Assembly: GCF_022376445.1 (NCBI RefSeq)
Contig: NW_025955019.1
Location: 1 to 64,000, forward strand
Source of the DNA: Fomitopsis serialis
Taxonomy: Eukaryota > Basidiomycota > Agaricomycetes > Polyporales > Fomitopsidaceae
DNA length: 64,000 nucleotides
Direction: 5' to 3'
Shown here: positions 1,365 through 49,895 of the stretch, one piece after another
Numbering within the stretch: the stretch's first letter is position 1
How the letters are laid out: every line of letters begins with the position of its first letter
Position numbers and translations under genes: made by a program
The notes under the pieces: model-generated
Database searches by the model: none
What the model was told of the DNA's origin: nothing
Seen by the model: the letters and a program-made list of their open reading frames with translations, nothing else

Positions 1365-4300
1365 CTAACGCCGGCGGGTTGACCTTCGTGTCGCCGTCGT
1401 GGTCTTGCTTTGAGACTTAACCTTTGCCGGCGACGCAGACTTCTTCGTGTTTGACGTCCGGGCTGACGATTGACCATTGGCGGGCGATTCAGATAGGTTT
1501 GCCTTGGGCCGTTTGATCCGGGCGCCGATCGCTGACGACTTCTCGGGCACATCTCCAGCTTTCCGCTTCTTCTGCATCCTATGTGCCATGTCTTCCCACA
1601 GTTTGCCTATCGTCTCGCAGTGTTCGCCGAGCTCCTCGACGAAGCTCCAACCAAGTTGTGATCCGTGCACGTACTGTGGGATCTCGTCTTCCTCGTCGCT
1701 CCGGTGATCGATCTTCCTCTCGATGTCCTTCACAACCATGGCAATCGCCAAGGTAACGATAAGTCCGTTCTCTCGGCTCATCGGGGTGTCCGCAAGACTG
1801 GTACCTATTCGTGTGAGCCACGCACGGAACCGTGCTAGGACGTCCTTGTCATTGTGAATGTCCGGCGTGCATCTGGCCCGGCGGTAGTTCCAACTTGCCC
1901 AGTCCCACTTAGTCTTGGACTGCCATGCGCCGGTCTCGGACTAGATGTGGTTCGTCAGAACATCAGTGGCGAGCACGTTAAGGTGGAGCTCACGAGGTAG
2001 GGCAGTTTGTTGACCAGGTTTTGCACCCCGTCATCGGCTGTGAGCTCCCGGAGCCACTGGCGCCGTTCCTCCCAACTCTTCCCAGCGGTGGCCGGGCTCT
2101 CCTCATGCGCTGTGGTCCAGGACGACCGGTGCGGACGGCCGGCGTGTCTTTGGCCTTCTTCGGCCTTACTGTAAAGTGGACGGGAATAAGAATCCACCCA
2201 GGCCGAAGCAGGTTTATACTCACCCGGAGTTGGTAGGATGATCACCTCGTCGTCGTCCTCGGCATTGGATTCCACCGGAGCCCTTTTCTTTCCGCTGGGG
2301 CCCGCCTCCGCTTTGGAGGTGAGCAACGGGTTACGGGCCTTCTGTTCTGCTTTCCCTTTGGTCCCACCGTCGGCGGGCACGGGCTTGCAGCTTTCTTGGG
2401 GACCGGGCCCTCCGGGACTACCTCGGGCCGAGGACTGCTGGGATTCGCGGCCTTCTTCTTGGGCCGGGGTTTGCTCGGTTGGGCCTTGGATATGCCCACC
2501 GCCTTATTCCCACCTTCCGGGGCCGTCACTGCGGGCGCTGCAATCCCCTTCGGTGGGCCCGATTTCCCTGCCGGCACCGGGTTGTCGTCATGGGATACTT
2601 CCCCAGTGGGCCGGGCCTTCGAGGGTGCAGCACCTCGATCGGCAGCCTTGCCCTTGTCCTTACGGGGTGGGGAGGTGCTTCATCGTCCGTCAACTGGGGC
2701 GACTGTGCCTTCTTCTTTCCCTTGTCTTTCCGCTTCGGCGACGGTTTCGCTGGCTGCTCCTCCTCATCGGTACTCAAGTCGGCTTTGAATAGGTCGCTGA
2801 AAGTCTCCTCCGCTTCGCTCTCCTCTGCGGACGCCTCATCGCTAGCAATATCGCCGGCAGGTTCTTGCCGGCGCGCGCGAGACGGTCCGGGCGTGGCTTG
2901 CCTACGCTGTGGCTTAGGTCGCCTCGCCGAAGGTTTAGGCTTTACTGGCTCCGGGACGACGATCTCCAGCTTGGAATTCTTCCAGGCCCTAAACCGCAGC
3001 ACCGGACCCTGCGGATGGTCGTCTTGCCTCTCCCGCCAATGAGTGAGGATTGCGTCGAGGTCCCCGGTGCGCATCTTATTCGGGTCGCTCAGCACGGTGC
3101 CGGCGGGGAGGTACTCAGGGTCGATGAACGAACCGAGAGTTCTGACAGTGATTGCCACGGCACTTTGACTGTTGATCGTCCGGTGAAATTAACTGTTGAT
3201 AATATGTCAACAATGGAATGCGTATCAATCCCGGACACGCGTACCATACGTCTTCCGAACGAACGTCGCCAAAAACATACGCTTCAATTTCGTCTTTTTG
3301 AAACAGTCGTGGTCCGCCGGCGGCATGAGCGGATACCCGTCCTCGTCCTCCTCCCAGTCCATGTTTTCGATGACCGATGCCGGTCCGTGGTCCCCTTCCT
3401 CTTCGAATCCATTCCCATCTGTTTGCTCCGGATTTAGGTCTCGCTCGCGCCGCCGAAAGCTCTCACATACCGAACACGGTCTTGATGTATGCCTTCCACA
3501 TGTCATACAGCAGGCCGGTTTTCCACTCGGCATGGGTGGCAGTAAACTTCGGTACCTTCGGGGAATCTTCTTCAAGTATCATCTCGTCGTTGAAGTCAAA
3601 CCTGACAATGTATTCAACGATTCGAAGCCTAGCACTACGGTGGGCACACGTACTCTAACACACCGTTCTTCCCGTCCGCCATCGGGATCCCGACGAGGAG
3701 AAAGCACCTTGCCCCGCATTTCCTCCACATGATCTTCATGAAGTCCCGGATCATGGTGGTGCCGTACTTCTCGAGCTGCTTCCGTTGAAGGTCGGCGGCC
3801 ATACCTGCGTGTTCCAATCCTTGGCGACCTGCATGTAGTCGGCCTGGTCCTCCGGCGAGAGATTGTCGCAGAGCTCCTTCAAGGCGGTTTGGTAGATGGC
3901 CGGGATCTGGCGGCTCGGCATCGCCTTGCCTTCCTTGTCCTCCCTCTCATCCCCCTCCTCCTCCTCCTCGTCGTCGTCATCCAACCCATCCTTCCCCCTC
4001 TCCCGGGCAATCCTCGCCATGATCTCGCCCAGCTCATCCTCCCGGTCGCGGGCCGCGACCGTCCTCCACGTTATGTCCTTGCCGAGCTTAAACATCTCCT
4101 TCTTGACCTGCTCCTTCGACCCCCGTCGGTTAGAGTACCACTTATCGACGCGCTGCCGGAGATGAGCTACCAATGTTCTATCATCGTCGTCGAATGCATA
4201 CCTTTCGCAACTGAGCATCAAACTTGATTTTCTTCCGCTCTTCCAGCCGTTGAATGCTGTTCTCCACGAGCTCCTGACGTCGCTGTGGATCCTCGGAAGC

Positions 4301-4369
4301 CTGTTGATAATCCTCCAGGTTGCTGTTCAGGATCACTAGGTCCGGTTCTTGCCAGGTGACCTTTCCCAT
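1365..4369 (-). pseudogene. KDZ-associated partner protein with W[FY]xN helix motif, frameshifted
   Basis: Minus-strand multi-exon gene starting at the ATG 4369 (MGKVTWQEP). After about 55 codons an intron of about 49 nt (GTATGC...GGCAG) leads into RVDKWYSNRRGSKEQVKK, which resembles the third helix of a homeodomain (WFxNxR). Later segments are MIRDFMKIMWRKCGARCF, FDFNDEMILEEDSPKVPKF, an acidic segment, FIDPEYLPAGTVLSDPNK, a long Lys/Pro/acidic disordered region, SWEERRQWLREL and a C-terminal block KWDWASWNYRRARC to the stop at 1365. At least three single-base frame breaks are needed, near 3806, 2675 and 2395. Two lie next to G or C runs. The same protein type sits at 47272-49895 beside another KDZ transposase. 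The family looks like an expanded agaricomycete transposon partner, and a DNA-binding role is inferred only from the helix motif. Confidence 0.6.
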
Positions 4370-5267
4370 TGCGAGTTGCTGGTGAAGTGAGAATGCTAGG
4401 TGAGCAAGGTGTGATTTGTCGACGAAGATGGTGATGGCAAGAGTTCGGTAGCCTCGGGGTGACGGATTCGGTGACACCCCGAGCCTTGTTCGCCACAACC
4501 TTTCGATTCTGAGCTTAGATAACAGGCTGTACTCGGGCTACACAAATTCTACCTGAACCATAACACAACATTCGTTTCATTGTTTACTTATCACCATAAC
4601 TCTGATGTGCTGGCACGCCGGCCGCCAGAATGGGACGGTTCCGGCCGGAGCATCACGGGCGAACCCACATTGGATTCCACCGAGTCACCAAGGTGTGAAT
4701 TGTTAGCTCTCCAGTTCCATGGTACTCGGCGTATCGCAGATCCCGCTCGCCGCCGGGTCCGGTCACTGACTCCGGTTACCAGGTTAAGACAAGACCCATC
4801 ACCGGCCGTCCCGACCGGGAAGCCAACGGCAGGCTGAAACCGATCTGGCTCCAACATAGCATCCAGCAAATGCTTCTGGCACCTCGTCTAACTGGATGAA
4901 ACGCAGCGCACCGGACACGTGACCGGCAGGCGGGCCGGACCGTTGTGATCGACATCTTGCCGGCCGCATCATTATATACGCAACTGACTAATGTCCGGCC
5001 GGGCCATTATGCGCCCCGTTCTCATGCGAACCATCATGGAATCCTAAATGCTGTCTGATTTAGACGAACTGCAACACTTAGCGACTCCACGTCGGTGATC
5101 CCGGCCCCGGCCGCACCATACCCGGAACACGGGCGGCCGGCCCGCTGCATACTGCTGCACTAGTGGCAATCGCAATGGTTGCAGCAGTTTTGACGTGAGC
5201 AATGGCAATACAGAGCTGAACTCTGCCCTTATCAAACTGCTGAGCTGTTGATTGCTCTGGTAACACC
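4370..5267. promoter_or_regulatory. Intergenic region between two divergent element genes
   Basis: About 0.9 kb separates the start codons of the minus-strand partner gene and the plus-strand transposase gene, so both promoters must lie here. No TATA box, operator or repeat was identified with confidence. Short open frames in it show no domain. Confidence 0.35.
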
Positions 5268-8200
5268 ATGGGTCGACTGCGGCCAACGGCAACCTCTCCT
5301 GCAGTGGTAGAACTCACACTGACGAAAAGAAGGACTGCAAGGGGAGTGAGGTCACGGCTTGTCGAGGTGCAGAATAGCGGGTTGCAGACTCCGCCGGCTA
5401 CACCCCATCGAACCGCTCGGTCGACAACAAGACAGTCCAGCTGGACGCCACCAACCGATGATGTTGCCAACACGACTTTCTGCGAGTTCCCCACAGTTCG
5501 ACAGAGTGCCCCGCAGGTATACCAAGTGCCCATGTTGTATCGTAGACAGAGCCTCACCAATTCAATCAGACACAACCTGAGATGCTTAGAGAGTGGATTC
5601 CCTCCAGCACAACTATCTGCGATCGTTGTACGCCCACTACAAGCCTCCCGCGCTCAGTGCCGAGGGGAGCTATATGTGCTCGAGCTGCAACAGTGGCGGC
5701 GGGTATGGAAGTGCATGTCGTGCATTGGTTATCCAATCTTCTGCCCGACCTGCTGTCTCGCCGAGCACCGGCGAACACCATTCCACCGGGTTGAGCAGTG
5801 GAACCTCGGAGGATACTGGGAGCCCTCATGGCTCCGTCAAGTTGGAGTTTCAATCACTCTCGGCCACCGGGGCAGAGAATGCCCCCAGCCGGCGGTTGTG
5901 TGGAGGATGACGAGGAAGTGGAGATGGACCGGGCGACCGATCGCGCGGCCGACGATGATGGCGATGTACCAGCGGACCCTCTTCACCACGCCGACTCACC
6001 TCCGCGACCCCCGCCCGCAATGATGACTATTGTTGACACCACCGGGGTGCATTTCCTCCGGTGACGTGGTGCGGCTGTCCCGACGCCGGTGACCACACAT
6101 CGCAGCTTCTCGATGCCGGGTTGTATCCGGCGAGCCAGCGCAAGGCTCGTACGTGCTTCACCTTTGGGGCACTTGACGGTTTCCTGCTGGACAATCTGGA
6201 GTGTAAGACTACCGCCATGAATTACTACGCACGGATTCGACGGGCCACCAATCCGGCTTTTCCCCATGAAGTACCGGTGAGTGAGTGTCCAGAATACCAG
6301 CAAAGCACATGATTGAAATGGAGTAGGATCGATACCTTGAGCTGCTTAGAGTGAGCCGCGAATGGGCGTTGCTCCAGGCGAAGAAACAGTTTGGATACGG
6401 GCCACAGTGGCGAGAGGCCCCGGGCAACGGAGACCTTGCTCACTTTTGCCCGGCATGTCCGCAGCCCGGAGTGAACATACCCGAGGACTGGGAGGTGGAT
6501 GATAGGAAGTAAGTAGTTACTCTGTTCGCCGGTATACGCCAGCTGAACTGTTCTGGAGGTACCTATATGCCCGAGGATATGTCATGGATGGGAACTTCCA
6601 CGCCGAGCAAATGAAAATGCGCAAGCCCGAGAACGACGTACCGTTGATGCCGGGGAAAATGTTCATGGTTCATCCCGGCCCATACGAGGAGCACCTGAGA
6701 GTAGCGAAGGACGTGAAGATGGTGAGGGTGTATACAGCCGGCATACGAACGTGTGGCTAACACGTCCACAGCACTCAAGCTGCAACGACCACAAGGCGGT
6801 CTCCCAGGCCAACGCCGACCGGCATAAGCTCGCTGTCACCGGGATCGGCGCAACATCTTGTTTGAGGCACGGGTGCTTCCTTCCGCACTCGGTAGTGAAC
6901 TATCAGAAGGGCGAACGTCAGATGAACATGGACTACTCCCTGTCCAATGCTCTCGGCTACCGCTCGAGAGGTATTGGGCACGTCTATGTATCATACGACA
7001 TCATGTGCCAGTACCACGTCCATCTCCATGACCGATTTGACGACAATCCTTATCTTCAAATGCCGGGGGGCCTCGTCCTATACAAGTGCATTGGCCTCTT
7101 TCACATTCACGGTCACAAGGCGGAGTGCGAGCTCCGGCACTCTCTCACCTTCACCGAGGGGGCCGGGGAAGCTGACGGCGAGATCATCGAAACCCAATGG
7201 TCGGGGATCAATCCCGTGTCGGGTAGTACCCGCTCAATGTCAACATCCCACCGGCAGGAAACCCTCGACCGGCACATGAACAATTGGAATTGGAAGAAGA
7301 TGATCACCATGGGTATGGTCTAGCTGATTGTGGCATCACACATTGGGCTGACGGAGGACAGTGGCTTCGCTGAGAAGAAAAATCAAAGCCAATCGGCCAC
7401 TGCTGGCCGACATGAAGGCCGACCTCACCGCAAAGGAGGCCAGTGTCGATGCCGACATTTTGGGAGAGTGGAGGAGGGAACTCAGGATAGTACAACGACG
7501 AAGGCTGCGGGATGTGAAGGTAATGGACAGGTATCAAGCGAAGAAACAAATTAGTTGGTACACTCTGCTCTCCATGCCGAGCTCTGGTCTGATTTGGTCA
7601 CAGTGCCCTCGCGGCTCGAACTTCAGATAAAGCTTGCAGAAGAAGAGGGTGAGGCGGGGACCGCGTTGGCACAGCGGACTGGATTGCCGATGGCCTTAAG
7701 CTTGAAGAGCAACAGTCAGTGCTTTGACCTCCTTTTCCGAGCTAATTCTGATCGCCCTGCTGCAGACTCGCAATCCAGAAAGATATAAAGCAGATGGGCG
7801 CCACTGTGACGGGGGCTCAAGAGTTAAAGCTGGCCAAACGGAGGAAGCCTCTCGAGAGTCAGATCCGGCGGTTCCACCGGCGAGCGGCTGCAATTCACCG
7901 AAGGCATGACTGGGGCGTGGCAGAGGAGGAAGCAGTGGATGACGACTCGGCTGCGGAGTGGGAAGAAGATCCCAACGATCCCCCAGCACATGCCGACAAT
8001 CCATGGTCCATCTTTCCCAGTAAACCGCCCGCACCATACCCAGTGAAGGCGGCGGAACATACGAAACTCGGGCTACCTTCGAATTTCACGCGGAATGCTC
8101 TAACCGCCAATGGATTGCAACGTTGGCCGCGCACGAGCTCACTCTGCGGCGCGGACAAGCAATGATGCCTTGCAGCAGCTTCGGATTCTCATCGGCAAGA

Positions 8201-8841
8201 AATCGTTTGAGTTCCAGACAACCATTCGGCACGGGAGGAAAGATGGCAACAAGAAGCGCACCCGATCCTTACCAAGTTGGGTAAACTCGACCGAGCTGTA
8301 CAGCTTCAAGCCGCAATCTATCGCCGGGCCCGGCGGCGATGCAAGTGCTCGGCCTGTCTGCAGAGGATCAAGCTAAATATCAGCAGCTCACCCCAGATGA
8401 TCTAAAGACAGTAACCGCCATTGCCGAGCCCAACAAGGCCGGCCAACGGCACAATCCCCCTCGTGGATATGGAATGTTAACGTCGGTGGCGACATACGGA
8501 GCAATGACGAGTTGGGAATCAGTACGTGAGACGGCGGTGCGGCATTGAATAACTCGCTGACATTGCGCATAGTTCACAGGGTACAGTGGTTCCATGCCCG
8601 TTCAAAGGTCGACAGATTGGAGGAAGAAGCCGCCATATTGCGCAGGGAGCTTGACTCCGTGTGCCGATACTTTGACCACGAAGCATGCCGGTGGCGAGGA
8701 CTAGCGACCAATAACACCGATGCCGAGTACCCAGGATTTTCCCAGCATTGCCGAGCACAAGGCGCACTGTTTGATCGCCTGCGTGAAGATGCAAAGGTGG
8801 CATGGCGGGATCTGTACCTGGAGCCGAATGTCGTGATGTAG
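5268..8841 (+). pseudogene. KDZ transposase with CxC2 cysteine cluster, frameshifted
   Basis: Plus-strand multi-exon gene. The CxC2-like zinc cluster lies at about 5680-5800 (MCSSC, CMSC, FCPTCC, EHRRTPFHRV). Next come VTWCGCPD, HFCPACPQPGVNIPEDW, the MDGNF segment (about 6580), then SYDIMCQYHVHLHDRF (about 6990), FHIHGHKAECELRH and ADGEIIETQW (about 7170), which should supply the acidic catalytic core. The C-terminal region ends in a Glu/Arg-rich helix segment to the stop at 8841. Clear GT-AG introns include 6280-6327, 6722-6771 and 7313-7361. Frame breaks near 5700, 6056, 8125, 8270 and 8340 stop one protein from being read. The start at 5268 is the first ATG of the open frame upstream of CxC2 and is uncertain. 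The enzyme would cut and paste the element; this copy is probably dead unless the indels are assembly errors. Confidence 0.8.
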
Positions 8842-8983
8842 TGGTAGGATAGAAATTTACTTTGTAATCGTACCACCTACCCGGCTACACAGTCTACATA
8901 TTCCGAGGGTTGTGACGAGCTGTCAGGCCCCATGGTCCCAGCTCCGAGTCCGAATGCTTGCCCGAAGTGCCGGCCCGAGAGTG

Positions 8984-9182
8984 TGACCAAATACTCGGCC
9001 CGCGGACCAGTCCGCACTCCCGGCCCGAGAATATGACCAGATACTCGGCCGGCGCACCAGTCCGAACTCCCGGCCCGAGTATATGACCAAACACTCGGCC
9101 CGCGCACAAGTCCGAACTCCCGGCCCGAGAATATGACGAAACACTCGGCCCGCGCACCAGTCCAAACTCTCGGCGCGAGGTA
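8984..9182. repeat. Four-copy 50-bp tandem array, CTCGGCCCG family
   Basis: The string TGACC(A/G)A recurs at 8984, 9034 and 9084, with TGACGAA at 9134, exactly 50 bp apart. Each unit contains ACTCGGCCCGCG and ACTCCCGGCCCGAG. Degenerate copies of the CTCGGCCCG core continue to about 9330. The array lies just 3' of the KDZ transposase gene. Its core matches that of the 24-bp array at 1068-1205. Confidence 0.85.
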
Positions 9183-9589
9183 TCAGGCATGCTCGTGGCC
9201 CGAGCAACGTTGAGAACTCAAGGTCTCAGTTGTGTGCCCAACTCTCGGCCCGAGCACTTCCCAAATCCTCGGTCCGAGCACTCTTCAAAAGCTCGGGCCG
9301 AGCGACCAGGCAAATACTCGGCCCGGGTTAGGTGAACGAGGCGTTGGCCGCAATGTCGTATGCCTGTATACATAGTGCCCGCGTGGCCTTGGCAGAGGAA
9401 AGTCGTATCTTAGAGGGACTGTCGGTGCTCTGGTAATTCATACGAGGACATGAAATGTACTTTTGCCCGGGATGGCATCCTGCAATGTCGCATGCCAAGT
9501 AATGGGAGTTCGGTGATCATCCTGGCTCATTTGGAGCAACTGAAAGCACGACAGCAGGAGTACATGTGTAAGCATTTGGAACCAAGGAC

Positions 9590-11546: not shown

Positions 11547-12929
11547 TCACTCCCAAGTGTTCCGCCAACTCACGTCCGGCATCCCAGCCCAGCGATGTAC
11601 ATTGCGTCGCATAAAGTATGCCACACATATCCGCTCCGCCGACGCCTGTGGAACATCATGGGGGAGGCGAGTGCCCGAGAATGCGGTGACCGTTCCGGTT
11701 TTGTAAGGAAGTCGGAGACCCAAAGTCGGAAACTTGATGTACTGCTCGGGATCGCCACCAATCGTCATCAGGATGTCGTACCACTCCTTCGGAGACAGCA
11801 TGTCCCGATGAACCGGGCTCGCTCGGTTTGTGATTACCGAAAGGGCATTGAACGGGTTGTGCCATAAATCTACAATGCTGGCCCGGTCCGGGTCGCTTCG
11901 CAGAGCTTCAATAGAGGCACGACCGGCGTCATACAAATCCGGATGCATGATGCGCAGCATGCCGGATATGATGATATGCGGATGGGCCATCTGGTCTAAC
12001 CACATGTGACCGGCGGGGCCGGTGTTCGGATCGGTGAGCAAGCGAGAGACCAGTGGGACGTCGTTGGCGCCCTGCTAAACTTTGAGCGAACAATTCGGGA
12101 AGTCTATCCGGAGACGTACAGCGTGTCCGAGCCAGAACCACCCCGGCGAAAACGCGACACACGCCGGCTTAAGGTCGTCCCCCTCCTGCGGCTCCCGGAA
12201 ATTCTCGATATTTTCCCTCCAGCTTGCACTCGCCTTGGGGCGATTGTGGGAGAGAAGTGGATTGAGACCGATTGTGGCGTGCCATATCGCTCTCTTGTAC
12301 TCGGTCATAGACAGTTGGCGGTGGACATATGTATTCTGGCGTACCTGGAAGACCTCCGTGATCACGCCGGGAAGGTGCCACATCAGCACCCGGCCCTGAT
12401 TGTCAGCGATGGTAAGCGGATCCTGGCAGTCCTCGTATTGCACTGCGGCCAATTCATCATCGTCCGGTACAGTGCATGGATGAGTCGACGCATCCCACTG
12501 TACAGTCCCTGCCTGGTGAATGAGTGGATGAGCATGTAGGCGAACGATTGATGAGTGCTCACGGCGATTCCTGTACGCGTCGGCCAGCATCTGCGCTGCA
12601 CGCCTGGCCTGGCGAACCAGATAGACGTCGAGGAGCAGTCCGGGAAGCGGAGCGGCGCCGGGGCGCGATGCCGGCACCGAGAGGAAGTAGAGGTACAATG
12701 CCTCCAGATACGAGCAGTACTGGTTGTGCACTTGGGATACTGTGACCATGGTGGGGATTGATGCAGAGTCGTATGAGCGACGTCGCAAGTCCCCAGACAA
12801 CGCCGGATGCACGTCCCTGAAAAAAAGCGGCCTCATGGTTACCTTGTGTATAGCATGTGGCTTCCTCATGGCCCAGATAAGGACTCGAAAGGATGGCTGA
12901 CCCGCTGCATGATCACTACTTATCAACAT
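11547..12929 (-). CDS. TET/JBP-type 2-oxoglutarate/Fe(II) dioxygenase with one in-frame TAG
   Basis: One frame runs on the minus strand from 12929 to 11547, broken only by TAG at 12075-12077 (context GTT TAG CAG). The upstream half contains RVLMWHLPGVITEVFQV and CVAFSPGWFWLGHA. The downstream half is the catalytic double-stranded beta-helix: FNALSVITNRASPVHRDM gives the HxD iron motif (about 11800), LRLPYKTGTVTAFSGTRL the central strands, LPHDVPQ the second iron His (about 11655), and ERICVAYFMR the Arg expected to bind 2-oxoglutarate. The family oxidises methylated pyrimidines in DNA (TET) or thymine (JBP). Basidiomycetes have many copies, often inside KDZ transposons, which matches the setting here. 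The true start is uncertain because upstream introns may exist. The stop may be a mutation, a sequencing error or, less likely, a readthrough site. Confidence 0.75.
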
Positions 12930-13025
12930 TGATGGGAGATAATATTATCATCTGCCATCCATTTGTTGACGCATCGTCCGACCAGCCGACGTTCCTTTGG
13001 CTTGCCTGATCCAGGGCTCAATTCT

Positions 13026-14170
13026 AGCGGTAAGCCGGTGCTGTACAAGGCCGGCCGGAGCGTTGGAGACGAGAGGTGCCCGGCCGGACAGCCCTCCGGC
13101 CGGCACGTTGGAACGGGGGATGGGGTGCTACGGGTGCACCGCTGGGGGACACATGGGCAGGGTGCAGGCCGGCCGGAACGTTGTGGATGAGAGGTGCCCG
13201 GCCGGACAGCCCTCCGGCCGGCACGTTGGAACGGGGGATGGGATGCTCCGGGTGCACCGCTGGGGGACGCAGGGGCAGGGTGCAGGCCGGCCGGAACGTT
13301 GTGGATGAGAGGTGCCCGGCCGGACAGCCCTCCGGCCGGCACGTTGGAACGGGGGATGGGATGCTCCGGGTGCACCGCTGGGGGACGCAGGGGCAGGGTG
13401 CAGGCCGGCCGGAACGTTGTGGATGAGAGGTGCCCGGCCGGACAGCCCTCCGGCCGGCACGTTGGAACGGGCGATGGGATGCTCCGGGTGCACCGCTGGG
13501 GGACGCAGGGGCAGGGTGGAGGGCCGGCCGAAACGTTGGAGACGAGAGGTGCCCGGCCGGACAGCCCTCCGGCCGGCACGTTGGAACGGGGGATGGGGTG
13601 CTCCGGGTGCACCGCTGGGGGACACATGGGCAGGGTGCAGGCCCGCCGGAACGTTGTGGATGAGAGGTGCCCGGCCGGACAGCCCTCCGGCCGGCACGTT
13701 GGAACGGGGGATGGGATGCTCCGGGTGCACCGCTGGGGGACGCAGGGGCAGGGTGCAGGCCGGCCGGAACGTTGTGGATGAGAGGTGCCCGGCCGGACAG
13801 CCCTCCGGCCGGCACGTTGGAACGGGGGATGGGGTGCTCCGGGTGCACCGCTGGGGGACACATGGGCAGGGTGCAGGCCGGCCGGAACGTTGTGGATGAG
13901 AGGTGCCCGGCCGGACAGCCCTCCGGCCGGCACGTTGGAACGGGGGATGGGATGCTCCGGGTGCACCGCTGGGGGACGCAGGGGCAGGGTGCAGGCCGGC
14001 CGGAACGTTGTGGATGAGAGGTGCCCGGCCGGACAGCCCTCCGGCCGGCACGTTGGAACGGGCGATGGGATGCTCCGGGTGCACCGCTGGGGGACGCAGG
14101 GGCAGGGTGGAGGGCCGGCCGGAACGTTGGGGACGAGACGTATCCGGCCGGCCTGCCCTGCGGCCGGAAC
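13026..14170. repeat. 118-bp GC-rich tandem array, about nine full units
   Basis: The string GTGCCCGGCCGGACAGCCC recurs at 13076, 13194, 13312, 13430, 13549, 13667, 13785, 13903 and 14021, a period of 118 bp (one step of 119). A degenerate tenth unit follows to about 14170. Units contain nested CCGGCCGG palindromes. Units 4 and 9 share the variants GGGCGATGGGA and GGGTGGAGGGCC, and units 1, 5 and 7 share ACACATGGGCAGG, so the array looks like a duplicated block of four to five units. Because 118 leaves remainder 1 on division by 3, long open frames appear on both strands (up to 401 codons); these are artefacts. Confidence 0.95.
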
Positions 14171-14285
14171 GTTGGTACGCTACCGTCTGCAACGTTGACC
14201 CGGACCCCTCCGGCCGGCGCCGGCCGCACCGTCTTAGACGGCCGAATCTCACTCCGGGTCTACCGTTCGAAACGTCAAATCTTAC

Positions 14286-25621: not shown

Positions 25622-25665
25622 ACATATATCAGGCGCTTCTCGCAATTCACGACGCTTACGACCGT

Positions 25666-38258: not shown

Positions 38259-41200
38259 TCAGGAAACCCCCCCTACGCGAATGTGGCGCAAATCGGCGGC
38301 AAATCGCCGCTGCGTGCCTGTCGCTGCGAATGGCTTGTAAATCGTTGCGAACACCTCTTGAATAAACTGAGATGTGTTCATGTACATAGTACATACACGT
38401 CATTGAATATTATGTGCATTGGGTGCTTTGATCAGCTGTGACTACAATACACAAGTTACGGTACATGTACAGACGGCTCTTCTCGTCCGGCTGTGCCCAT
38501 CTGCTGGCCGTCTCACTTGCTTGCTGTTTTTCCCGCTGGCCGTCTCTCGCCGACTCGTTTGTCTGCCCGCCTGCTCGCCTGCTCACCTACCTGCCTGCGC
38601 GTTCGTCGGCCGTATCTGCACGCTGTACATTCGCCCAGCGCGCCTGCGGTCGCCGTGCGTGTGGTGCTCGTCCGCGCCCTGTGCCCGTCCCCTTGCACTC
38701 TCGCCCGCTTGCACTCTCGCCCGCTCGCTCGCGCACCCGCCTTCCCACTGGCCGGCCTGCCAGCTGGTCCGCTGGTCCGCTTTCCTTCCAGCTTGCTGGT
38801 CTGTCCACCCGCCCGTTCGGTTTCTCATTAGCTCACCTGCTCACTCGCCCACTTGTTCACCCACTCACCCACTCGCCCTGCGGCCCACCCGCCCGTTCGT
38901 CCGCTCGCTCGTCCACACGCCTGCTCGCTCGCTCGCTCGTCTGCCCGCTTGCCCGCCCGTCCGCTCGCACGCCCGTTCTTGCGCCCACCCGTTCTTGCGC
39001 CCACCCGTTCTTGCGCCCACCCGTTCTTGCGCCCGCTCGCCCCCTGGTCGTTCGTCCGTCCGCTCATCCGCCCACCACCCATTCGTCGGCTACGTCTGCA
39101 CACAGGGCATTAGCCCTGTGTGCTCGTGGCTGACGTGTGCATGGCTGCGCCCTGTGCTCGCCGTTAGCTCACAGGCTCGCGCGCGTCTCGACTATGTACC
39201 TGGTCACGACTTCGTGGCTGTTCGCTGACGTCTGGCGTGTGAGGGTCCATTGCGTCCCGCGCGTCCTCCAGCTGTCGGAATGGCGTGACTGTCGAATTGA
39301 CGCTAGAAGACCTCGTAGTCAGCATGAGACGCCGTGAGAGGTGCGTACCTGGACAGTGGGCGCATTCTTCGGATGCGCGTTTGCTGACGGTCGCGGGAGC
39401 TTTGATCGCGTTCAGCGGCCCGGGTAAGGGTGCGGGTTTGGGCATCCGCTCCGCTGTATTGCGGGCCACGGCGAGGACGAGTGCGGCGAGGTGGGGATCT
39501 CGGCGCGAGCATTGGCGAGTGGGGACGAAACGTTGCGGTAGCGGCCGCGTACTGCGCACCCTCGGGAGCGGACGTGCACTGAAGGACGGCGTCGACGGGG
39601 GGAGCGTGAGAGCGGGTGGACGTGAGAGGGTGAGCAGGCTCGAGACTCGAGAGGTTCAAGTTGGGCCGTTGACGCCGAAAGCCATGGCGCTGTCGAGCGT
39701 CGGCTTGGTGTCCGTACGAGCAGCACAGAACGGTGAGCAGCAAGCGGGCAGCGCGAAAAGAGAGAAGACAGAGAAGTCGCATTGTGCCTGCCCTGAGTGA
39801 GATCGGTCACATGACTCACCTCGCCACGTCGCACGTTGCGCAGTGCGCACCTCGACCGCGAGCGCACTGGGCAACTGCACAGCACGCAGAAACGGCCGAC
39901 GAACGCGTGCAACGCACGCCAACAAGCTGGTAGGCGGGCGGGTGGTTGGGCGAGAGCGAGAGAGCGAGTGGATGGGCGTTGGGCGAGGACGGGGAGGGCG
40001 GGTCATCGAGTGGGAGCCGACGAGCGGGCGGCAGGTGCGGATGACGAGCGGATGGCGGGAAAGGGAGAGCGGGCTGCGAGGATGGGCGAGAGCCACAGGT
40101 GAGCGCGGACTGCGCGAGCGAGCTCCTAACTGCACACACACAGGACTTGGCAACGTGCAGAACGACACGCACGACGACCGTGAGCACGCAGAGCCAATGC
40201 TCTGCGTGCAGGCACGCCCGACGAACACGTGGCGGGCGGACAAGCGGACGGGCAGGCAGGTGGCAGCACACGCCGACCGCGAGCGCGTTGGGCAAATGCC
40301 CAGCGCGCAGACACGGCCGACGAACGCACACATGGCACGCGAACGGGCAGGCGGATTAATGGGCACCGGGCAAGCAGACGAGCGGAGTCGAAGACGGGCA
40401 GACTGGTGCGCGAGTAGCCAAGTAGGTGAGCAGGAAGACGGGTGGGTGCGCGAGCGGGCGGGCGAAAGGACGACAGGGCGGCAGGGCGAGAGGACGAGAG
40501 GACGAGAGGGCAAGCACACGGACACAGGGCGCGGACGACGACCACGCGGACGTTGACCGCGAGCGCGCTGGGCAAATGCCCAGCACGCAGGCACAGCCGA
40601 CGAACGCGCGCAACACGAGCGGGAAGGCAGGCGAGCGGGTGGACAGGTGAGTAGGCAGGGACTGACAAGTACATGACTGAGGGCGAGCAGGTGACCAGGC
40701 GGGCGGGCGGGTGCACGAGCGAGCGGGCGGGTCGGCGAGGACACAAGCGCGGGACGACACATGCCAACCGCGAGCGTACTGGGCGAATGCCCAGTACGCA
40801 AGCACGGCCGACGAACGCGCGCACAAACGAGCGTCGAGCGGGCAGATGGACGAGCGGGCGCGCAGGCGGATGGGGACGAAGGCGGGCAGACGAGCGGGAA
40901 AGCGGGCGGACAGGTAGGAACGCGAGCAGACGGGCAGGCGGGCGAGGAGTTGCCGAGGACGAGTCGGCGGACAGGGTGTGGCAACACGGCACAGCACCGC
41001 GTACAGCACACCGACCGCAAGCGCGTTGGGCGAACGCCCAGCACGCAAGTACGGCCGACGAACGGGACGTGCGCGCGTGAGCGGGAGATGGAGATAGCGA
41101 CGGTGGGCAGGGCCAGAACGTGCCCAACACACGCTGACCGCGAGCGCGTAGGGCCAGTGCCCCGCGTGCAAACGCAGCTGACGAGTGCGCCGTGGGTACG

Positions 41201-41796
41201 GGCACAGCGTTCAGGCGGAAGGTGTGCGGACGGTGCGTATGAATGGGAAACAAGCGGACGCGAGCGAGCTGATGCTCTCATTCACAGGCAAAGGGCTGGT
41301 GAGGGATGGTGGGAATGCGCAAGCGGGAGCATGGGCGAGCGGGGAGGACCGTGAGTGGGGAGGATGACGAGCAGAGAGGATCATGGTGAGTGGGGAGCTT
41401 GAGGATAACGAGGACGGCCGGTGCGGGTGCAGGCAACAATCCCAAACCCGTGCCGGTACCACCGAGGTAAGCCAACCCGCGGTCCACCGCCGACACCGGC
41501 GGTGAACCCGGGTATGGTACGGGTAGCACCGTACCTGGGTGTGGGTACGCGGGAAAGGGTGGATGAAAGTAGTAGTGGTTCGAATTATGCGTGTAAATAC
41601 AGCTGGCCAATCAATGCGAATTGAAGTATCCAATTGATATGATTGAGCATGCATTTACTCACAATTCACAACTGTTGGACATCAATTTGTGCAAATTCGA
41701 GCGAGGAAATCAGGGGGGTCAAGTAAATGGGGTGTCCAGGAAGTTTATGCAAATTTATGTGAATTTGCACAAATTTGCATGGGGTGGGTTTCCTGA
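38259..41796. mobile_element. 3,538-bp Helitron-like insertion splitting the KDZ transposase gene
   Basis: The left end is TCAGGAAACCC and the right end GGGTTTCCTGA, so the ends are 11-bp inverted repeats and also fit the Helitron rule TC...CTRR. The flanks are A on the left and T on the right. Joining the flanks restores an uninterrupted transposase reading frame across the site (RLKRK, then HEDVSTDSVDPGL). A hairpin with arms ATGCAAATTT and AAATTTGCAT ends 16 bp before the right end, as Helitrons have a hairpin near their 3' end. An alternative is a TIR element with a 2-bp AT duplication. No RepHel-type gene is present, so it would be non-autonomous. The interior is GC-rich minisatellite-like DNA. 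Confidence 0.7.
38598..41190. repeat. Dispersed 54-bp palindromic unit, about nine copies, two inverted
   Basis: A unit of about 54 bp (GACCGCGAGCGCG...TGGGCAAATGCCCA...ACGGCCGACGAACGCG) recurs near 39857, 40178, 40277, 40555, 40765, 41013 and 41135 on the plus strand, and in reverse orientation near 38598 and 39084. Its centre is a conserved inverted repeat (for example CTGGGCAAATGCCCAG). Substitutions on one arm are often matched on the other (TACTGGG with CCCAGTA; CAGAGC with GCTCTG), which implies selection or conversion for pairing. Spacers are GAGCGGGCGGGC-type low-complexity DNA. Long open frames here, up to 541 codons, are artefacts of composition. Confidence 0.85.
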
Positions 41797-43243
41797 TGCT
41801 TGCGCTTCAGGCGGAAGTTCGCGTCCATACCGACGAACAGCCGGTACAGCCAGCTATGCAAGTTGTGAGATAAACGCACTCATAGATTGACGCACGTCGC
41901 ACCTTTTCTCTGGCGGGGCATCTGCCCAATCGGAAGGCAGATTCTTGTCAGGGTGTGGACAAGCGGGGCAGAGAACTGCACAGGACCCAGGCTCTGTAGC
42001 CCGCACTCCACCCGGGTCGTGACCACGGCCAAACCGCTTCAGCATCTTCAGATGAAGCCACATGCGCGCCATACGCATGAAGCTATGGTATCGTCCCTTA
42101 TGGAAAGGTAATTTAAGTTACATCGCCAACGCGCATCACGAACGACAGTGCGTACCTTCGGTTCCTCTGTCCCCGTGTTGTCTGTCCTTCTCGAAAGTGT
42201 ATTGAAAAACTCGAAGCCCGATGCCTTCGTCTGATTGTGAAGGACGTGGTAGTACTCCATCAGGCGAAACGTCGCGGCCGTCTTGGGATCGATGCGTGTA
42301 GCCGGAAAGAGTCGCGAGCGCAGCAGTTGAGTATGTTTCGGCTCGGCAGTCTCGCAGCCGCAGTAATCAACAGCGACTTCGTGAATACCGGAAACATCCA
42401 GCACGACGAAATCGTCACCAAAGGCTCTCTGGGGATTGATGCATGCGTCGCCATATGCATGGCCCATCTGGATGCGTAGGCCTATCTTCTTGAGGGTCGT
42501 CTTGCAGAGTCGACCGTCTGTCCAGCTCTACACCTCGAGTTGATTAGTCCATCGCCCACACAACTTGAAGACGAAGCCGTACGTACCTTCAGGCGATGGA
42601 ATGGATTGCGGCGATGTCGATTGAGAGTACATTCTCCACAGTAGAACCGTAGATCCCAGCAGTCGTCGCAACGATAAAGGGTTTCGCCAGCGTCCGAATC
42701 ACAGCCCACACAAGTATTGTATGCGAAGTCACCACGTCCTTCGTGACGAATCAGCTCAGCGAGCCATTCGTCGATGGAATCTTTCGCCCATTCCCGTAGA
42801 GGATGGTCCTGTACTGACTCATTAGCCACGAATGTACGATCGAAATTACTACTCACGCTAGCGGTGCGTTTGCGATGCTTGGTGACCTCGAGATATTCAC
42901 CAATATCTGTGAAGAATTCCTGTGGAAGCGTTTCAAATGCCTCGCCATCGCCAAGCTCTGGCTCCCAAGCAACGTAGGGTTCCGGTGGCTCGTTTATAGA
43001 GGCGTTCGTGTTGCCAATGCCCGCATAGATTGGAGGTTGTGCGCCGGGAGGGGGAGCATCTGCTGTAGTTATGCCAGATGTACGCGTCGACACCCCGGAA
43101 ACCGTCGTTGCGAACGATGTATGTTGGTGGCGTGAAACAGCAGCCAGTGTGCGATCTTGATATCTGGCAGTCTCGTCGTCATCGTCGTCGTAGAACCGTA
43201 CGTTGTCTCGTGCTCGGCGCCGCTTCTTTGCAATTCGAGACAT
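41797..43243 (-). CDS. KDZ transposase, N-terminal third with CxC2 cluster (gene split by insertion)
   Basis: Starts at ATG 43243 (MSRIAKKRRRARDNVRFYDD). The front is acidic and Pro-rich. The CxC2 zinc cluster follows (NTCVGCDSDAGETLYRCDDC, FYCGECTLNRHRRNPFHRLK). An intron of about 60 nt leads into KKIGLRIQMGHAYGDACINP, VSGIHEVAVDYCGC and YYHVLHNQTKASGFEFFNTL. A second intron (about 42160-42105) leads to MWLHLKMLKRFGRGHDPGG and CPACPHPDKNLPSDW. A third ends at about 41842 before WLYRLFVGMDANFRLKRK, the DANF motif thought to carry the first catalytic Asp. The reading stops exactly at the insertion edge. No frameshift was seen in this part. Confidence 0.8.
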
Positions 43244-44864
43244 GGGCGCACAAACGGGTGGAGGAGCCGTCAGAGAACATCTCAGGGCGGGCCGTAGTCA
43301 CAAGTCACCCTGGAAAATGGGGGTGGAAAATGTTATTCAGCCCATCTCCGCCCCGACAAGGCGGGACTGTACACATGCCGGAGTATCGTCAGGAGAACAC
43401 CAGCTCTTGATCCCTTGCCACCAGATTCGGATGAAGCCTAGCCGACAGAGCAAGGATGTCAGTGGCTCTGCCTATGGTGGACAAATTGCGGCGCAGCTTC
43501 AATGCACTGTGAGGCAGAACTACATTCGGTTGCCTCTTCGGCCAGTGCCTGCTCTGTCAAACGGCCGATAAATTTGTCTCATCTCCGGCGAGCATCGCAT
43601 CGAACGCGTGGCTGCTTCCATGCACTACTGAAAAAAGTAAGTCATACGACTTCGAGGTCGATGAGTTCATCATACTTACTGTGAGTCAGTGATGTTCGGA
43701 TGGAAGCCAACGGCAACCAGTACACACATGCCTGGCCATTACAGAGGATTGAACATATTTGGGGCATTTGATTTGGAAGCTCCTCTTTTCGCTCGTGCCC
43801 ATCACCCGCCGGCGGACACTATTAGGGTACCGAACAGGGAGTACTCTAGGAATTGAACCAACAGTCTCTGCGCACTAAACATCGCCATCCCGAACACCCG
43901 CCGTGCCTACAAGTCGAACATGTGTACCACTGTAACGGTGCAGAGACGGGTCATAAGTCAACGACCTCTCAAACGTACCAGAAAGGTACTCACCGAGGCT
44001 GAGAGGTATAGAAGCGAAAGCAGTAGCGGCAGCAACACGGTGGTTGCTCGACTTCAAACCTGTACCCACGCGTCATTGACCTAGGGTGATTAAGTGTGAG
44101 TGTCGGGGCTGATTCAGTGTCGAGAGACTGGCACATACCTTGGCTAGAGTGACTGCAGAGACCCGTACTGAAGAGCGGGACGAGGTGGTGGTCGGTTTCT
44201 GAGGGCGGTAAGTCTTATCTCTGGGCTATATACGAGCAATATGGTTCTGGCTCCGATGAATGATCTCGTTGCAGAAGATCACGTACGTGTGTCAGCCAAT
44301 TATAGAACCGAAGTATGGTGTCTGCCGAATAGAGAGTGTATATCCGAAGGTCGCTTGGCCAATCACAAGCAGAATAATACTCATCTGAAATCGAGGTTGA
44401 TATGTTTAATGACGAGAACAGACTGTTTGCAGACGTACCGAGGCCCATTTGATGCGTATGAGGTAGGCCGTGAAGGTGATTCGATGTTGAGTAGCGTCGC
44501 GCAATACACGCCGGGTGTAGGTCACAGTGCTTAGTGAGGTCTCATAAACAGGTTGTCTAGTAGGCATTCGTTCGAAGTCTCGATTGGAGAGTCGCTGTTG
44601 TTGAGTCGCATGTCCGCTGGATCGTGTACACCCGCTCCGAGTCGACCATCTTTCTAGGGCCTAGGCTGTTTCCAGTCACTGTTGTTGCATATAGGAATCC
44701 AATAGTGCCTCAGAGTTAATGCTGATAGGAGGATAACACGGCACGATGAGACTCATGAGTGTGAGTAGTAGTGATGAATAGCATGGTTGCAGAGGTTAAC
44801 ATCTTGTAGGATCGTAGTGTGACAAGCACTGATCTGCGGGTTCACTGGATAACAATGTAATAGA
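43244..44864. other. 1.6 kb upstream of the KDZ transposase, no gene seen
   Basis: Only short, featureless open frames are present. The region must contain the promoter of the minus-strand transposase gene, but no specific site was identified. No repeat stood out. Confidence 0.4.
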
Positions 44865-45380
44865 TTACTTGAACGACACGTTCATGCGCTGCCACGGCAG
44901 CAGTTGATTCTCATATGCAGCCTCATACACCACACGACCCCTCTGTAGTACGTCCAACTCTGCGGCCACACAACAAACGACTTTGGCTCCCCAATGTAAT
45001 CCAACCGCTCGTGCAACTGGGTAGCTCCGATCACCCACTACATCACTATCCGTTCTCCCCGCGACCTCCTCCCATCCACGAATGCGTGTCTTGATCTCCT
45101 CCATAACGTCGGCCTCGACATCTGCGGCAGTACAGGCTTGCCACTCCTTGTACCGTCTTTCACCATTCTCCCGCAGCAACCGGTGTTGACGGTCGTTCAG
45201 AACTTCGGTCAAATGGTCCAGCTCGTCCTCCTCAGACATCCCAAACAGCTCATCCGCCTCACTCCGCTCCTCAAGCAGCCCGCGTGGGACAGTCGGAACG
45301 TAGGGGCTGGTGTAAAGCCCAAAGTCCGGAGTATCTGGAGGTGCCGCATAGGTGTGGAATGGTGTACGAGCGAGAGCCAT
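44865..45380 (-). CDS. Hypothetical 171-residue protein in second KDZ element
   Basis: A single open frame on the minus strand from ATG 45380 (MALARTPFHTYAAPPDTPDF) to 44865 (PWQRMNVSFK). It has an acidic middle (EDELDHLTEVLNDRQHRLLR) and predicted helices, with normal amino-acid composition. No known domain was recognised. It is co-directional with the transposase and the RNase HI N-like gene, which suggests it is element cargo. An upstream exon is possible. Confidence 0.45.
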   Translation of the reverse strand: MALARTPFHTYAAPPDTPDFGLYTSPYVPTVPRGLLEERSEADELFGMSEEDELDHLTEVLNDRQHRLLRENGERRYKEWQACTAADVEADVMEEIKTRIRGWEEVAGRTDSDVVGDRSYPVARAVGLHWGAKVVCCVAAELDVLQRGRVVYEAAYENQLLPWQRMNVSFK

Positions 45381-45972
45381 GATAGCGGGCGGTATGCCAA
45401 CGATGCGCTTGTGAAATGGGCTGGGTACGTGTCCAACACGAGCTGAGTAGTGCGCGCGGTTCTGACTGGTACTCGTGCCTGGCCTCTATAGAGCATGGTG
45501 TAAGGAGGATTGAACTGTACTACGACGTGTACATTGTACTCTAATAGAGTCCTTACCGAATGCCATGCGTGTACTTAGATTGCTGCGCACGTTTGGCGGC
45601 GAGCTTGGCCTCGACTGTGTGATGTTTCGCGCGTCGACCCATGAGTTGCCAGAGGTTTGCGCAAAGTATGTGCTGGAGAATTTAGTGTTGCGGGGAACAC
45701 GCGAATACCGAAGGATGTGAGTACTCGTGAGAGCAATCGTCATGACATTCAACAGGGCATTGCACAGATTCATCGACAAGGTATCTACTCGGGGCTATCA
45801 AGAAATTATGTGCGACGGACATGACCCCGGAGTGTAAGTGTTCGATGTGACAGGAGTGGGGATTGTGGAATGACAGCTCGCAGGCACCAAGAAGACATTT
45901 ACGACAGCTTACGATAGTGTTGCACAGTGCGAGCAGGGCACGACCGAACGAGACATCAAGACAGCACAGAGA

Positions 45973-46741: not shown

Positions 46742-47271
46742 CGTAGACAGAGGAGACAGGGGAAGGGAGAGGAGCCGGGCAGAATGATGGGGATCTAGCA
46801 AAGAGGATCAGTGCTATATAGCTCATTCCGACGGCGGACACGGAGATATGCGCATCTTCATTGGACCATGGTCTCTCGCACGATGTTCGTAAAAATCGGA
46901 TTAGGTAGACTGTACTCGCCCACTCGCTGTTCGCCTCCGACTTACAGCTCGGAGCTTCTATCTTCCATGTCGCCGCTGTCACGCCTCAGCGCGATTGAGC
47001 CCCAGTTGCAACTTGTCTGTCAAAGCCCCAATTCGCTTCAGCAGAATAAACGACGGGCACGAGTATTCGGGCCTTCTGCATCCGGATTTGGAAGGCAACT
47101 CACAAATGAAATGTTTAACGGGACCACGCCAACGGTGTTGCTTGCAAAGAGATCCATCGAGTTTGTGGTGTGACAATATAAGAACGGCCATCATGTATCA
47201 TCGCCCTCTGGTTACAGACGCATCCTGGTCAGTCTTACCGCCACCGCCAGCTCCTGTCACATCTCCGAGTC

Positions 47272-49895
47272 ATGGCTCCTCCGACTTGGGCAACTGTCGA
47301 ACAAAGGGACCTCTTGACGTCGAAGGTGGCGTCTCATCGCAGCGCACAAGCTGGACAGACATTACCGCGTTTCTGGGCTGATCTATACCGTGAATGGTTC
47401 AGGCTGTTTCCAGAGCGGGATGTCTTCTTCGCGGGTCGAACAGGGCCCATTACGGAGGAGGAATCGAAGGAGCTGAGCAAGGCCATAGAGAAACGTAAGA
47501 AGGTGAGCACGCGACCTTTCGAACAGCATCACCAGACTTCCCTGACGTGCTGCGCCTTTGAATAGACTTTGCGCAACTGGTTTAGTAACCATTCCGGCCA
47601 GAAGGGCCGCAAGGCAGCGTCTGCGAAAGTCAATATGAACATCTTCAAACCGAAAGGACGGCGGAACCTGCAGGTTCTTGAGGTATATTCTCGCAAGTAC
47701 TACGACGACTGCGTGAAGCCTGCCGTCAAAGCAGCCCTCGCGAGTCGCAAGTATGAGAGCGCTGAGAAGATGAATCTCGTGAGGCAACTGACCCGGGAGG
47801 CGTATGAGAATGAGAGCGACGAGACCAAAGCGGAGATCGAAGCCGAGGTCATCGCATCGAGAACCGCTAACGAGGCGCTCGCAGCTCTTCCAGCCAATGG
47901 TCAGGCTGGTCAGGCGCCGCCAAACCCTGTGCAACGTCAAGCGTAAGCCGTCTCTATGGTGTCGTTTGTTTGAATCTCATGCATCGATCTAGAATAATCG
48001 ACAACGTACCTGCCATTCTCCAACAAGTCCTGCCCGTGTTGCATGACTTGACGGGTGGATATTACATGGTCGTTGGCGTACTGAAGGACTGTGACGGAAA
48101 TATTACGACTGTGGCGTAAGTGACTTCATTTATATCGTTAGATAGTATGCTTACCATACTACTCTCAAGATACCACGCAGAGGACCCGACTGTGGGCTAC
48201 ACGTATGGCTCGTCGACGCCAGACTTCAAGTCGCGGGTCGTTCAGCCGTTCGCGGAATATGTTAAGGTTGAGCTAGGTATGCATAGGTTTCTTGCTCGAT
48301 GACCGATGGCTGACATACCATGTTAGCCGTACGTGAGGAAGAGGAGTTTGAGTCGAAAACCACCGGCCTTGTGCAGATGTCCGATTCCGAAGGTCGAGGC
48401 GAGAGCGTTGAAGCTGAGGCGGCGCAGACTATTGCAGAGACTGAGGTTAGCCACACTGAGGTCGCCCACACTGGTACGTCCATACACGCCATTGTTGTCC
48501 GCTTGTATGCCCATACGCACTTGGACAGATCCTGACGAGGGCGCCGCAGCAACGGAGACGTCTTCGGCAGCTCAATCTTCGGCGGACACGGCTTCAGGGG
48601 ATGTGTCTATGGCGGAAACATCCTCCGTGGATGTGTCGTCGCCATATGTGGTCGAGTCTTCGGTAAATGGCGCTTCGGACGACTCTTCTTCAGTGTACGC
48701 GACCTCCGCAGACAGGACATCGCTCACCTCTTCCCTGGATGCGTCGATGACCCTCACGTCTTCACCTTTGTTGGACGCGACTTCGGTGGACACCGTTATG
48801 GACGGGAACCTGGACCTGGGGTCTCATGACACTGCCACTGGCATGCTCGACCTACTTTATGATCACGAGCCTATCAACGCCCTCGCACCGGAGATGACTG
48901 ATCTCTACCGCCCCGAATTCAACCCCCAGCCTCCGTCGCTGTCGCTCGCTGAGTCCATGTCAGCTCCCTTCGTTTTCCCAGACGGCTTCACCTATGCGTG
49001 GGACGACAACAACCCGATGAACCCGATGACAATGGAAGGAAGCCAGATCTACGTGGGCGCCCAAGTCTCGATGCCCTTGATGGCAGCGGCGCCACCGCTC
49101 GGTTTCTTCCCCTCTGACACGTCTTCCTATCATTCTGGCTCATCTGTGCCAGCTGGATGGAACGGGATGGCCATGGAAGGCGCCATCGCGCCGATGGTCT
49201 CCCCGTCGCAGATGGTCGCCCTGTCGCAGATGGTCGCTCCGCCGCAGATGGTCGCTCAGCCGCCGATGGTTGCTCAGCCGCCGATGGTCGCCCCGCCGCA
49301 GATGGTCGCCCCGCCGCAGATGGTTGCTCAGCCGCCGATGGTCGTCGCGCCGCCGATGGTAGCCGCTGCGCCGTCGGCTCACACCTCTCCGGGCACCGAG
49401 CTCGCCGCATCGTCTCATGCAAGTACGCAGAGCGCCATAGCGTGGTCGGTGCCTTCGTCCACCGGGGTGTCATCTGCTCTGCCTTCGATATCTTCGCCTA
49501 CGCCGTCCATGACCACCTCTGCGCCGTCTACTAGCGATCACACACGTACGACGGTGTCTGACATCACGAATGTCGTTGACGCTACCACTCGTGCACGTTT
49601 GACGCAGCCGGCTACAAGCCCTTCTTGCTCTTCTTCAGAGGTCGAAGGCGTCAACTCACCTTCGTCGACGAACGGCGCACCGGAGCCGGCGAGCGCTACA
49701 GCAGCACCACGACCGCATCGTTTCCGTCGTGTGCCGGTGAACGCAGACGGGACCCGTCCCAGCAACTTACCCGGCACCCGGTCCCCCGCGAAGGAGAACA
49801 ATGTTGGGGGGTCGACGACGACGAAGACTGCACAGAAAAGGAAGGGGGCAACGAGCCCGACTGGACCGTCTAAGAAGCAGAAGGTTAGTAAGTGA
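47272..49895 (+). CDS. KDZ-associated partner protein with W[FY]xN helix motif
   Basis: Starts at ATG 47272 (MAPPTWATVEQRDLLTSKV). Exon 1 reads LPRFWADLYREWFRLFPERD and ELSKAIEKRKK, with an intron at about 47501-47564. Exon 2 begins TLRNWFSNHSGQKGRKAAS, the homeodomain-helix-like motif, and runs to about 47943. Further exons read IIDNVPAILQQVLPVLHDL and PTVGYTYGSSTPDFKSRVVQ. The rest is a long Ser/Thr/acidic tail with a PPQMVA/QPPMVA repeat near 49195-49370 and a basic end (QKRKGATSPTGPSKKQKVSK) like a nuclear signal. The gene is head-to-head with the transposase of its element, as is its relative at 1365-4369, and both have an intron at the same place before the W[FY]xN helix. A DNA-binding partner role is inferred. 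Confidence 0.6.

Follow-up and report, generated by a model that had tools for sequence, protein, structure and literature searches.

A W[FY]xN protein encoded head-to-head with KDZ transposases in Fomitopsis serialis: a candidate accessory protein of one large KDZ group

Introduction

Several DNA transposons divide their work between two proteins, as in En/Spm (CACTA), where one transcription unit yields both TnpD and the DNA-binding protein TnpA and the latter regulates the element's promoter, and in PIF/Harbinger, where the transposase is accompanied by a small Myb/SANT DNA-binding protein. For KDZ (Kyakuja/Dileera/Zisupton) elements, the questions at issue are how the ends are recognised and how silencing is avoided. 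These elements reportedly carry extra proteins, including a divergent HMG protein (Iyer et al. 2014). In this study, the first 64 kb of contig C545 (NW_025955019.1) of the 66.2-Mb Fomitopsis serialis assembly, hereafter the window, were analysed against the whole genome, with coordinates given as window positions and other loci named by their contigs. We observed two KDZ elements in the window, and in each of them the transposase gene is divergent from a gene for a protein with a W[FY]xN segment, here called the partner. We consider, with a probability of roughly 0.6, that the partner is a dedicated, element-encoded DNA-binding accessory protein of one large KDZ group, which would aid the transposase and tune expression.

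Comparatively, the arrangement shares with En/Spm a separate (here putative) DNA-binding protein beside the transposase, short inverted motifs near both ends and possible regulation of its own promoter, but the transposases are unrelated, and TnpA and TnpD form one transcription unit whereas two divergent genes are found here. The likeness to PIF/Harbinger lies in a two-gene DNA transposon with a small helical partner that may bind DNA; the transposase belongs to another superfamily, and a W[FY]xN segment stands in place of Myb/SANT. The families called Nuwa are also described with a two-protein make-up in PMC12730594. With reference to the KDZ elements that carry TET/JBP genes (Kojima 2025; Iyer et al. 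2014), element 1 of the window agrees in its combination of KDZ and TET/JBP genes, its agaricomycete setting and its accessory genes, while the head-to-head pairing, the common splice site, the W[FY]xN segment and the motif arrays were not found in the accessible parts of that literature.

Results

Structure and membership of the partner family

The original prediction held that both KDZ genes are divergent from a W[FY]xN gene, and this was borne out in both elements by PF18758 and by spliced partner models. PF18758 was detected in KDZ transposase 1 (E 5e-46; open reading frame (ORF) 6547-7323, + strand, domain 6739-7290) and in KDZ transposase 2 (E 5.5e-41; ORF 37540-37980, - strand). The intron had likewise been placed at the same point before the helix, and in both window partners this phase-0 intron ends exactly four codons before the W of W[FY]xN, which becomes residue 5 of exon 2. 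Intron 1 of partner 2 spans 47503-47565 (63 bp), and exon 2 opens at 47566 with TLRNWFSNH. Over all 279 residues of the spliced partner 2 core (100% of the query), a 324-aa protein of Fomitopsis schrenkii (P0001) is 51% identical, which supports the splice model.

Genome-wide searches, first with both partners' exon 2 and next with four divergent family members, disclosed 40 partner loci, of which 29 are element-1-like and 11 element-2-like, including a group 98% identical to partner 1; protein searches for relatives returned 1, 2 and 0 proteins. The AG acceptor lies at the same codon in all 21 loci checked out of the 40, comprising 14 element-1-like (C545, C484, C264, C634, C28, C163, C55, C126, C28b, C139, C34, C179, C273, C654) and seven element-2-like loci (C545, C767, C801, C102, C667, C8, C740), and a GT donor follows the expected exon 1 in 20 of these 21, the donor of C8 not being clear. 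C501, C256 and C189 stood outside this check, as the exon start with W[FY]xN was not identified there. The segment itself varies, reading W[FY]SNRR in the element-1 group and WFANHE, WFYNAA, WYTDQR or WFSNHS in other groups. A C34-type member bridges partner 1 to the C654 group (28-29% identity, E 2e-7). Comparison of the two partner types by hhalign gave P 0.028 (probability 1.8%) for full profiles and P 0.0019 (probability 14%) for the N-terminal domains (N-domains), which is no proof of kinship; the same-codon acceptor in both types is the better argument, and on this ground we argue that they are related.

Linkage to KDZ transposases

The pairing had been supposed to be conserved by function, and the linkage test set beforehand agrees with this: a KDZ locus stands head-to-head within 10 kb of 34 of the 40 partner loci, the random-site expectation being about 0.6%, a figure that ignores the kinship of loci, since copies that belong to one element do not count as independent. 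The same pairing, with its orientation, is kept across partner groups that share only 26-55% identity. From the other side, 36 of the 74 KDZ loci have a partner within 10 kb. In a control for transposon clustering with the unrelated Plavaka transposases, a partner was located within 12 kb at 4 of 122 Plavaka loci versus 35 of 74 KDZ loci, with 39 partner loci used on both sides, without C23; for the control, 123 of 323 candidates were scored, and minor fragment rows were dropped before merging to 122.

Six of the 40 loci (C264, C179, C447, C484, C667 and C789) depart from the pattern. At C264 (13098-32718), the KDZ gene lies 18.8 kb from the partner with a Plavaka match between them (23603-24625), apparently a nested insertion in a copy of element 1 that accounts for the gap. 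The nearest KDZ gene of C179 is on the same strand as the partner, and the contigs of the remaining four hold no KDZ gene; in two of these four the matched exon is interrupted by a stop, and in a third the matched stretch, which includes intron, contains two.

For scale, counting only the 36 above-cut-off TET/JBP rows out of 93, 24 of the 36 matches lie within 12 kb of a KDZ locus, and such matches occur within this distance of 19 of the 29 element-1-like partner loci and none of the 11 element-2-like ones (hand count, C23 added). The genome-wide search gave no TET match inside 34-52 kb of the window, where element 2 lies.

Selection on the partner

The ratio of nonsynonymous to synonymous substitution rates (dN/dS) was calculated from exon 1 and the opening part of exon 2 in eight element-1-like loci (28 pairs). 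It ranged from 0.109 to 0.265 in the 11 pairs with dS under 0.85 (for example C163-C55 0.109, C28b-C139 0.118, C484-C163 0.144 and C28-C126 0.265) and from 0.16 to 0.57 in 12 deeper pairs, and could not be computed for five. The element-1-like partner is under purifying selection while the elements spread.

Motif arrays and the common promoter

Inverted arrays of short motifs lie outside both gene pairs. The window contains 14 matches to GGCCCGGGAGTTTGG against 2.1 expected, 12 of them in two clusters that enclose the gene pair of element 1, and 25 matches to GTCTGTGATGTATGA (up to three mismatches) against 1.7 expected, 20 of them in two end clusters. The latter are mirrored, about 16 kb apart, and enclose KDZ transposase 2 and partner 2; an inverted short motif near both ends, as in En/Spm, is displayed by element 2 only.

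The promoter between partner 1 and KDZ transposase 1 harbors 12 GGCCGG/CCGGCC sites in 854 bp (4390-5243), with 0.84 expected and none of 1000 shuffles reaching 12. Clusters of 9-12 sites per 850 bp upstream of the partner were present in all 10 element-1-like loci examined outside the C654 group (from the C545, C163, C634, C126, C28b and C34 groups), and only 0-1 sites in eight other loci examined (two of the C654 group and six element-2-like). A forced alignment of the C545, C28b and C34 promoters gives only 42-45% identity, and stretches of 14-23 bp are all that can be aligned between C545 and the others; despite this divergence, the C28b and C34 groups still have 9-11 sites. The number of sites has been kept while the promoters diverged, which fits selection on the sites and not on the surrounding DNA.

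Resemblance to homeodomains

The best matches of the element-1-like N-domain profile (A7) were two HMBOX1 homeodomain chains (E 0.0023 and 0.0035), aligned over N-domain residues 3-68 with WYSNRR on WFANRR. When the groups with NRR were left out, WUSCHEL and HMBOX1 ranked first at E 0.056-0.45, which is not significant, and a reversed control had no homeodomain among its matches. The resemblance to the HMBOX1/HOT1 homeodomain (PDB 2cuf, 4j19) thus consists of the W[YF]xNRR of the element-1-like N-domain lying over WFANRR; the differences are an E-value of only 0.002-0.011, N and R positions that vary between partner groups, and the lack of a Pfam homeodomain match. The homeodomain-like character proposed for both partners is thereby reduced to a weak lead for the element-1-type half of the family, the element-2-type half having no such match.

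Layout of the two elements

The extents first given to the elements, 1365-8841 and 36036-49895, proved too short. Element 1 begins at position 105 or further left, possibly beyond the contig edge, and ends near 14296; element 2 extends from about 34.2 to about 51.9 kb as set by its mirrored arrays (Table 1). The left end of element 1 was not placed because the contig starts at position 1. Kyakuja-type KDZ elements are recognised by a 7-bp target duplication and CA..TG termini; no target duplication was found in the end ranges tried for element 1 (right end about 14296) or for element 2.

Table 1. Features of the two KDZ elements in the window
Feature	Position	Strand	Details
Motif array 1a, GGCCCGGGAGTTTGG-like	1069..1180	+	5 matches on +; period ~24 bp; downstream of partner 1
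Partner gene 1 (W[FY]xN family)	1365..4369	-	ATG 4369; exon 1 4369-4202
Partner gene 1, intron	4201-4153	-	49 bp, GT..AG, phase 0
Partner gene 1, exon 2	from 4152	-	Begins RVDKWYSNRR
Partner gene 1, later exons and low-complexity tail	down to 1365	-	By eye
Bidirectional promoter of element 1	4370..5267	.	Between partner 1 and KDZ transposase 1
KDZ transposase gene 1	5244..8841	+	First ATG 5268 by eye; end from the original prediction
Motif array 1b, GGCCCGGGAGTTTGG inverted	8972..9251	-	6 matches on -, 1 on +, downstream of KDZ transposase 1
TET/JBP dioxygenase gene of element 1	11547..12944	-	PF12851, E 2e-14, in 11547-12074
118-bp tandem repeat rich in CCGGCCGG	13048..14179	.	Near right end of element 1 (~14296)
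Left subterminal array of element 2, GTCTGTGATGTATGA-like	34218..35085	-	8 scored matches in 34317-35085, 7 on -
KDZ transposase gene 2	36036..43297	-	PF18758 at 37573-38257; first ATG 43243 by eye
Insertion nested in KDZ transposase gene 2	38257..41798	.	3542 bp; termini CATCAGGAAACCC / GGGTTTCCTGATG; 2-bp duplication CT
ORF between KDZ transposase 2 and partner 2	44865..45485	-	206 aa; no Pfam match above cut-off
Partner gene 2	47272..49895	+	ATG 47272; exons 47272-47502, 47566-47942, 47993-48115, 48170-48276
Right subterminal array of element 2, GTCTGTGATGTATGA mirrored	51059..51896	+	12 scored matches, all on +

Near 3.8 kb the reading frame of partner 1 is broken in the window copy; the C264 and C58 copies are open there. 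The ORF at 12075-12944, upstream of the PF12851 part of the TET/JBP gene, had no Pfam match. Copies of the last 300 bp of element 1 (13992-14296) occur at many genome sites. Several of them form inverted pairs with a spacing of about 2.9 kb (such as C656:116455-119336 and C89:57834-60711), which are probably short non-autonomous relatives with terminal inverted repeats.

The gene of partner 2 ends in a low-complexity tail, and its last intron was not placed. Element 2 may have a third gene in the ORF that lies between KDZ transposase 2 and partner 2. The insertion in KDZ transposase gene 2 breaks the coding region; it is of low complexity, has no recognised transposase and carries termini of the CATCA..TGATG type, matching the PlavakaB signature given by Kojima 2025 (PMC12730594), and it looks like a non-autonomous PlavakaB element. 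The KDZ-partner distance is 9.3 kb in element 2 versus 4.5-5.4 kb in seven of the eight other element-2-like loci with a KDZ gene, and the 3.5-kb insertion makes up most of this larger distance.

Between the two KDZ elements sits a Plavaka transposase (20647-21888, - strand; PF18759, E 6.9e-76), with a weak TET/JBP-like ORF (29843-30235, 130 aa) about 8 kb away. Weak TET-like ORFs were also noticed by eye 7-10 kb from Plavaka matches elsewhere (C667:350949/342724; C29:56899/46630), an arrangement like that of TET-positive Plavaka elements. Outside the KDZ elements, two tandem BTB/POZ ORFs occupy 54839-59449 (PF00651, E 1.3e-14 and 4.7e-8).

Discussion

In the explanation that we favor, the partner would bind DNA, most likely through its N-terminal three-helix homeodomain-like segment with W[FY]xN in helix 3, and would read short lineage-specific motifs, which stand in the inverted arrays on either side of the gene pair and, for the element-1 lineage, also in the common bidirectional promoter. 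It might then help to assemble the KDZ transposase on the element and tune both genes, as TnpA does for En/Spm, so that the accessory protein would mark the element and the promoter and the transposase would act on the marked DNA, in the manner of a two-component transposon. A dedicated second gene is conserved with the transposase (34/40 loci, with dN/dS well under 1 in the element-1-like group), and this gene, the inverted arrays and, in one lineage, the promoter cluster make up the arrangement of a two-component transposon; we infer that the partner may bind DNA, that the arrays may be its sites and that it may take part in transposition.

Several observations weigh against this. Pfam returned nothing above cut-off for exon 2 of partner 1 or 202 residues of partner 2, nor any homeodomain match in sets of seven and eight aligned members, and none of the 20 genome matches of the Pfam homeodomain model is a partner locus, where the intron would split such a match. 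N-domains of the element-2 type match no DNA-binding fold. For one member, two unrelated Pfam models gave E 0.0005 and 0.0014 without reaching their cut-offs; as these values are no higher than that of HMBOX1, an E of about 0.002 carries little weight. The AlphaFold model, with a predicted local distance difference test score (pLDDT) of 50, is too poor to settle the fold, and Foldseek found no match to it at E up to 0.001. About 5 kb separates array 1b from the right end of element 1, so that this array is not strictly subterminal. The motifs were picked after the repeats had been seen, and the link between protein and motifs is putative. One pair, C484-C34, has a dN/dS of 0.57 at dS 0.91. Moreover, no partner was detected at 38 of the 74 KDZ loci, and at four of these (C307, C148, C46 and C490), where 5.3-5.8 kb upstream was inspected by eye and with the W[FY]x[ND] pattern, none was recognised; the partner is therefore dispensable in some KDZ lineages. 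The single pattern match, at C148, has the same orientation as the KDZ gene, from which it is no more than about 0.8 kb away, and its sequence is not that of a partner. C148 also has a 1322-aa ORF resembling a retroelement polyprotein.

The strongest rival, which we nevertheless regard as unlikely, is an anti-silencing role, in which the partner would bind the arrays and remove or block host methylation, alone or by recruiting TET/JBP, and the KDZ transposase would suffice for transposition. Plant Vandal VANC proteins remove or block host methylation. Kojima 2025 (PMC12730594) proposes an escape from silencing for the TET enzymes with Vandal regulators as a parallel, and both the TET/JBP matches near element-1-like partners, absent near element-2-like ones, and the CpG present in the element-1 motifs and lacking in the element-2 motif are what this role would lead one to expect. 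However, element-2-like elements retain the partner with no TET match above cut-off in range, and arrays at both ends fit end recognition better than silencing alone. A combination of both ideas, in which agaricomycete KDZ elements would be machines of two or three components with a homeodomain-like partner reading a motif array of its own, the lineages with CpG motifs of the GGCCGG type carrying TET/JBP to keep their sites unmethylated and readable and the CpG-less GTCTGTGATGTATGA lineages dispensing with it, appears doubtful to us, and the C654 group, with TET/JBP present and the GGCCGG cluster absent, is a counter-example.

A further reading, also rather improbable, equates the partner with the divergent HMG protein reportedly described by Iyer et al. 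2014, acting mainly as a sequence-nonspecific DNA bender for synapsis, with a W[FY]xN helix that is no homeodomain. This idea draws on that work, on three helices in the central segment of the low-confidence model (120-136, 143-160 and 163-185) and on the HMG protein ABF2, which element-1-like central segments matched at E 0.7 only; annexins ranked above ABF2 there, and no HMG protein was matched by the element-2-like central segments. The central segment may still be the divergent HMG region of that study, and this would be compatible with a DNA-binding accessory protein if the partner has both domains. That the partner is a passenger, whether of host origin or cargo, that plays no part in transposition and is linked by the copying of whole elements, is very improbable, since pairing and orientation are kept across divergent groups, purifying selection is seen and two of the four loci lacking KDZ on their contig have a stop in the matched exon (a third has two in its intron-containing stretch), even if many of the 40 loci are copies of a few elements, such as the group nearly identical to partner 1, 38 KDZ loci manage without a partner, and the first exons of the C484 partner are open on a 24.5-kb contig with no KDZ match.

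The original prediction considered a second KDZ subunit to be uncharacterised, and this is only partly right. A head-to-head KDZ partner with matching cis arrays was not found in the literature within reach, which included text of PMC12730594, PMC12810828 and PMC9674265; what is available of Kojima 2025 (PMC12730594) makes no mention of this second gene, and neither its main text nor that of PMC12810828 contains the term HMG. Among the papers listed, KDZ, HMG and transposase came together only in one on Ectocarpus. The partner is not wholly new, as KDZ accessory genes are known in outline and Iyer et al. 2014 reportedly described extra KDZ proteins.

In summary, a conserved second gene and its candidate sites are carried on the same KDZ element, which would allow a direct assay of which component transposition needs. 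The same arrangement could give a reason why some KDZ elements carry TET/JBP demethylases and others do not.

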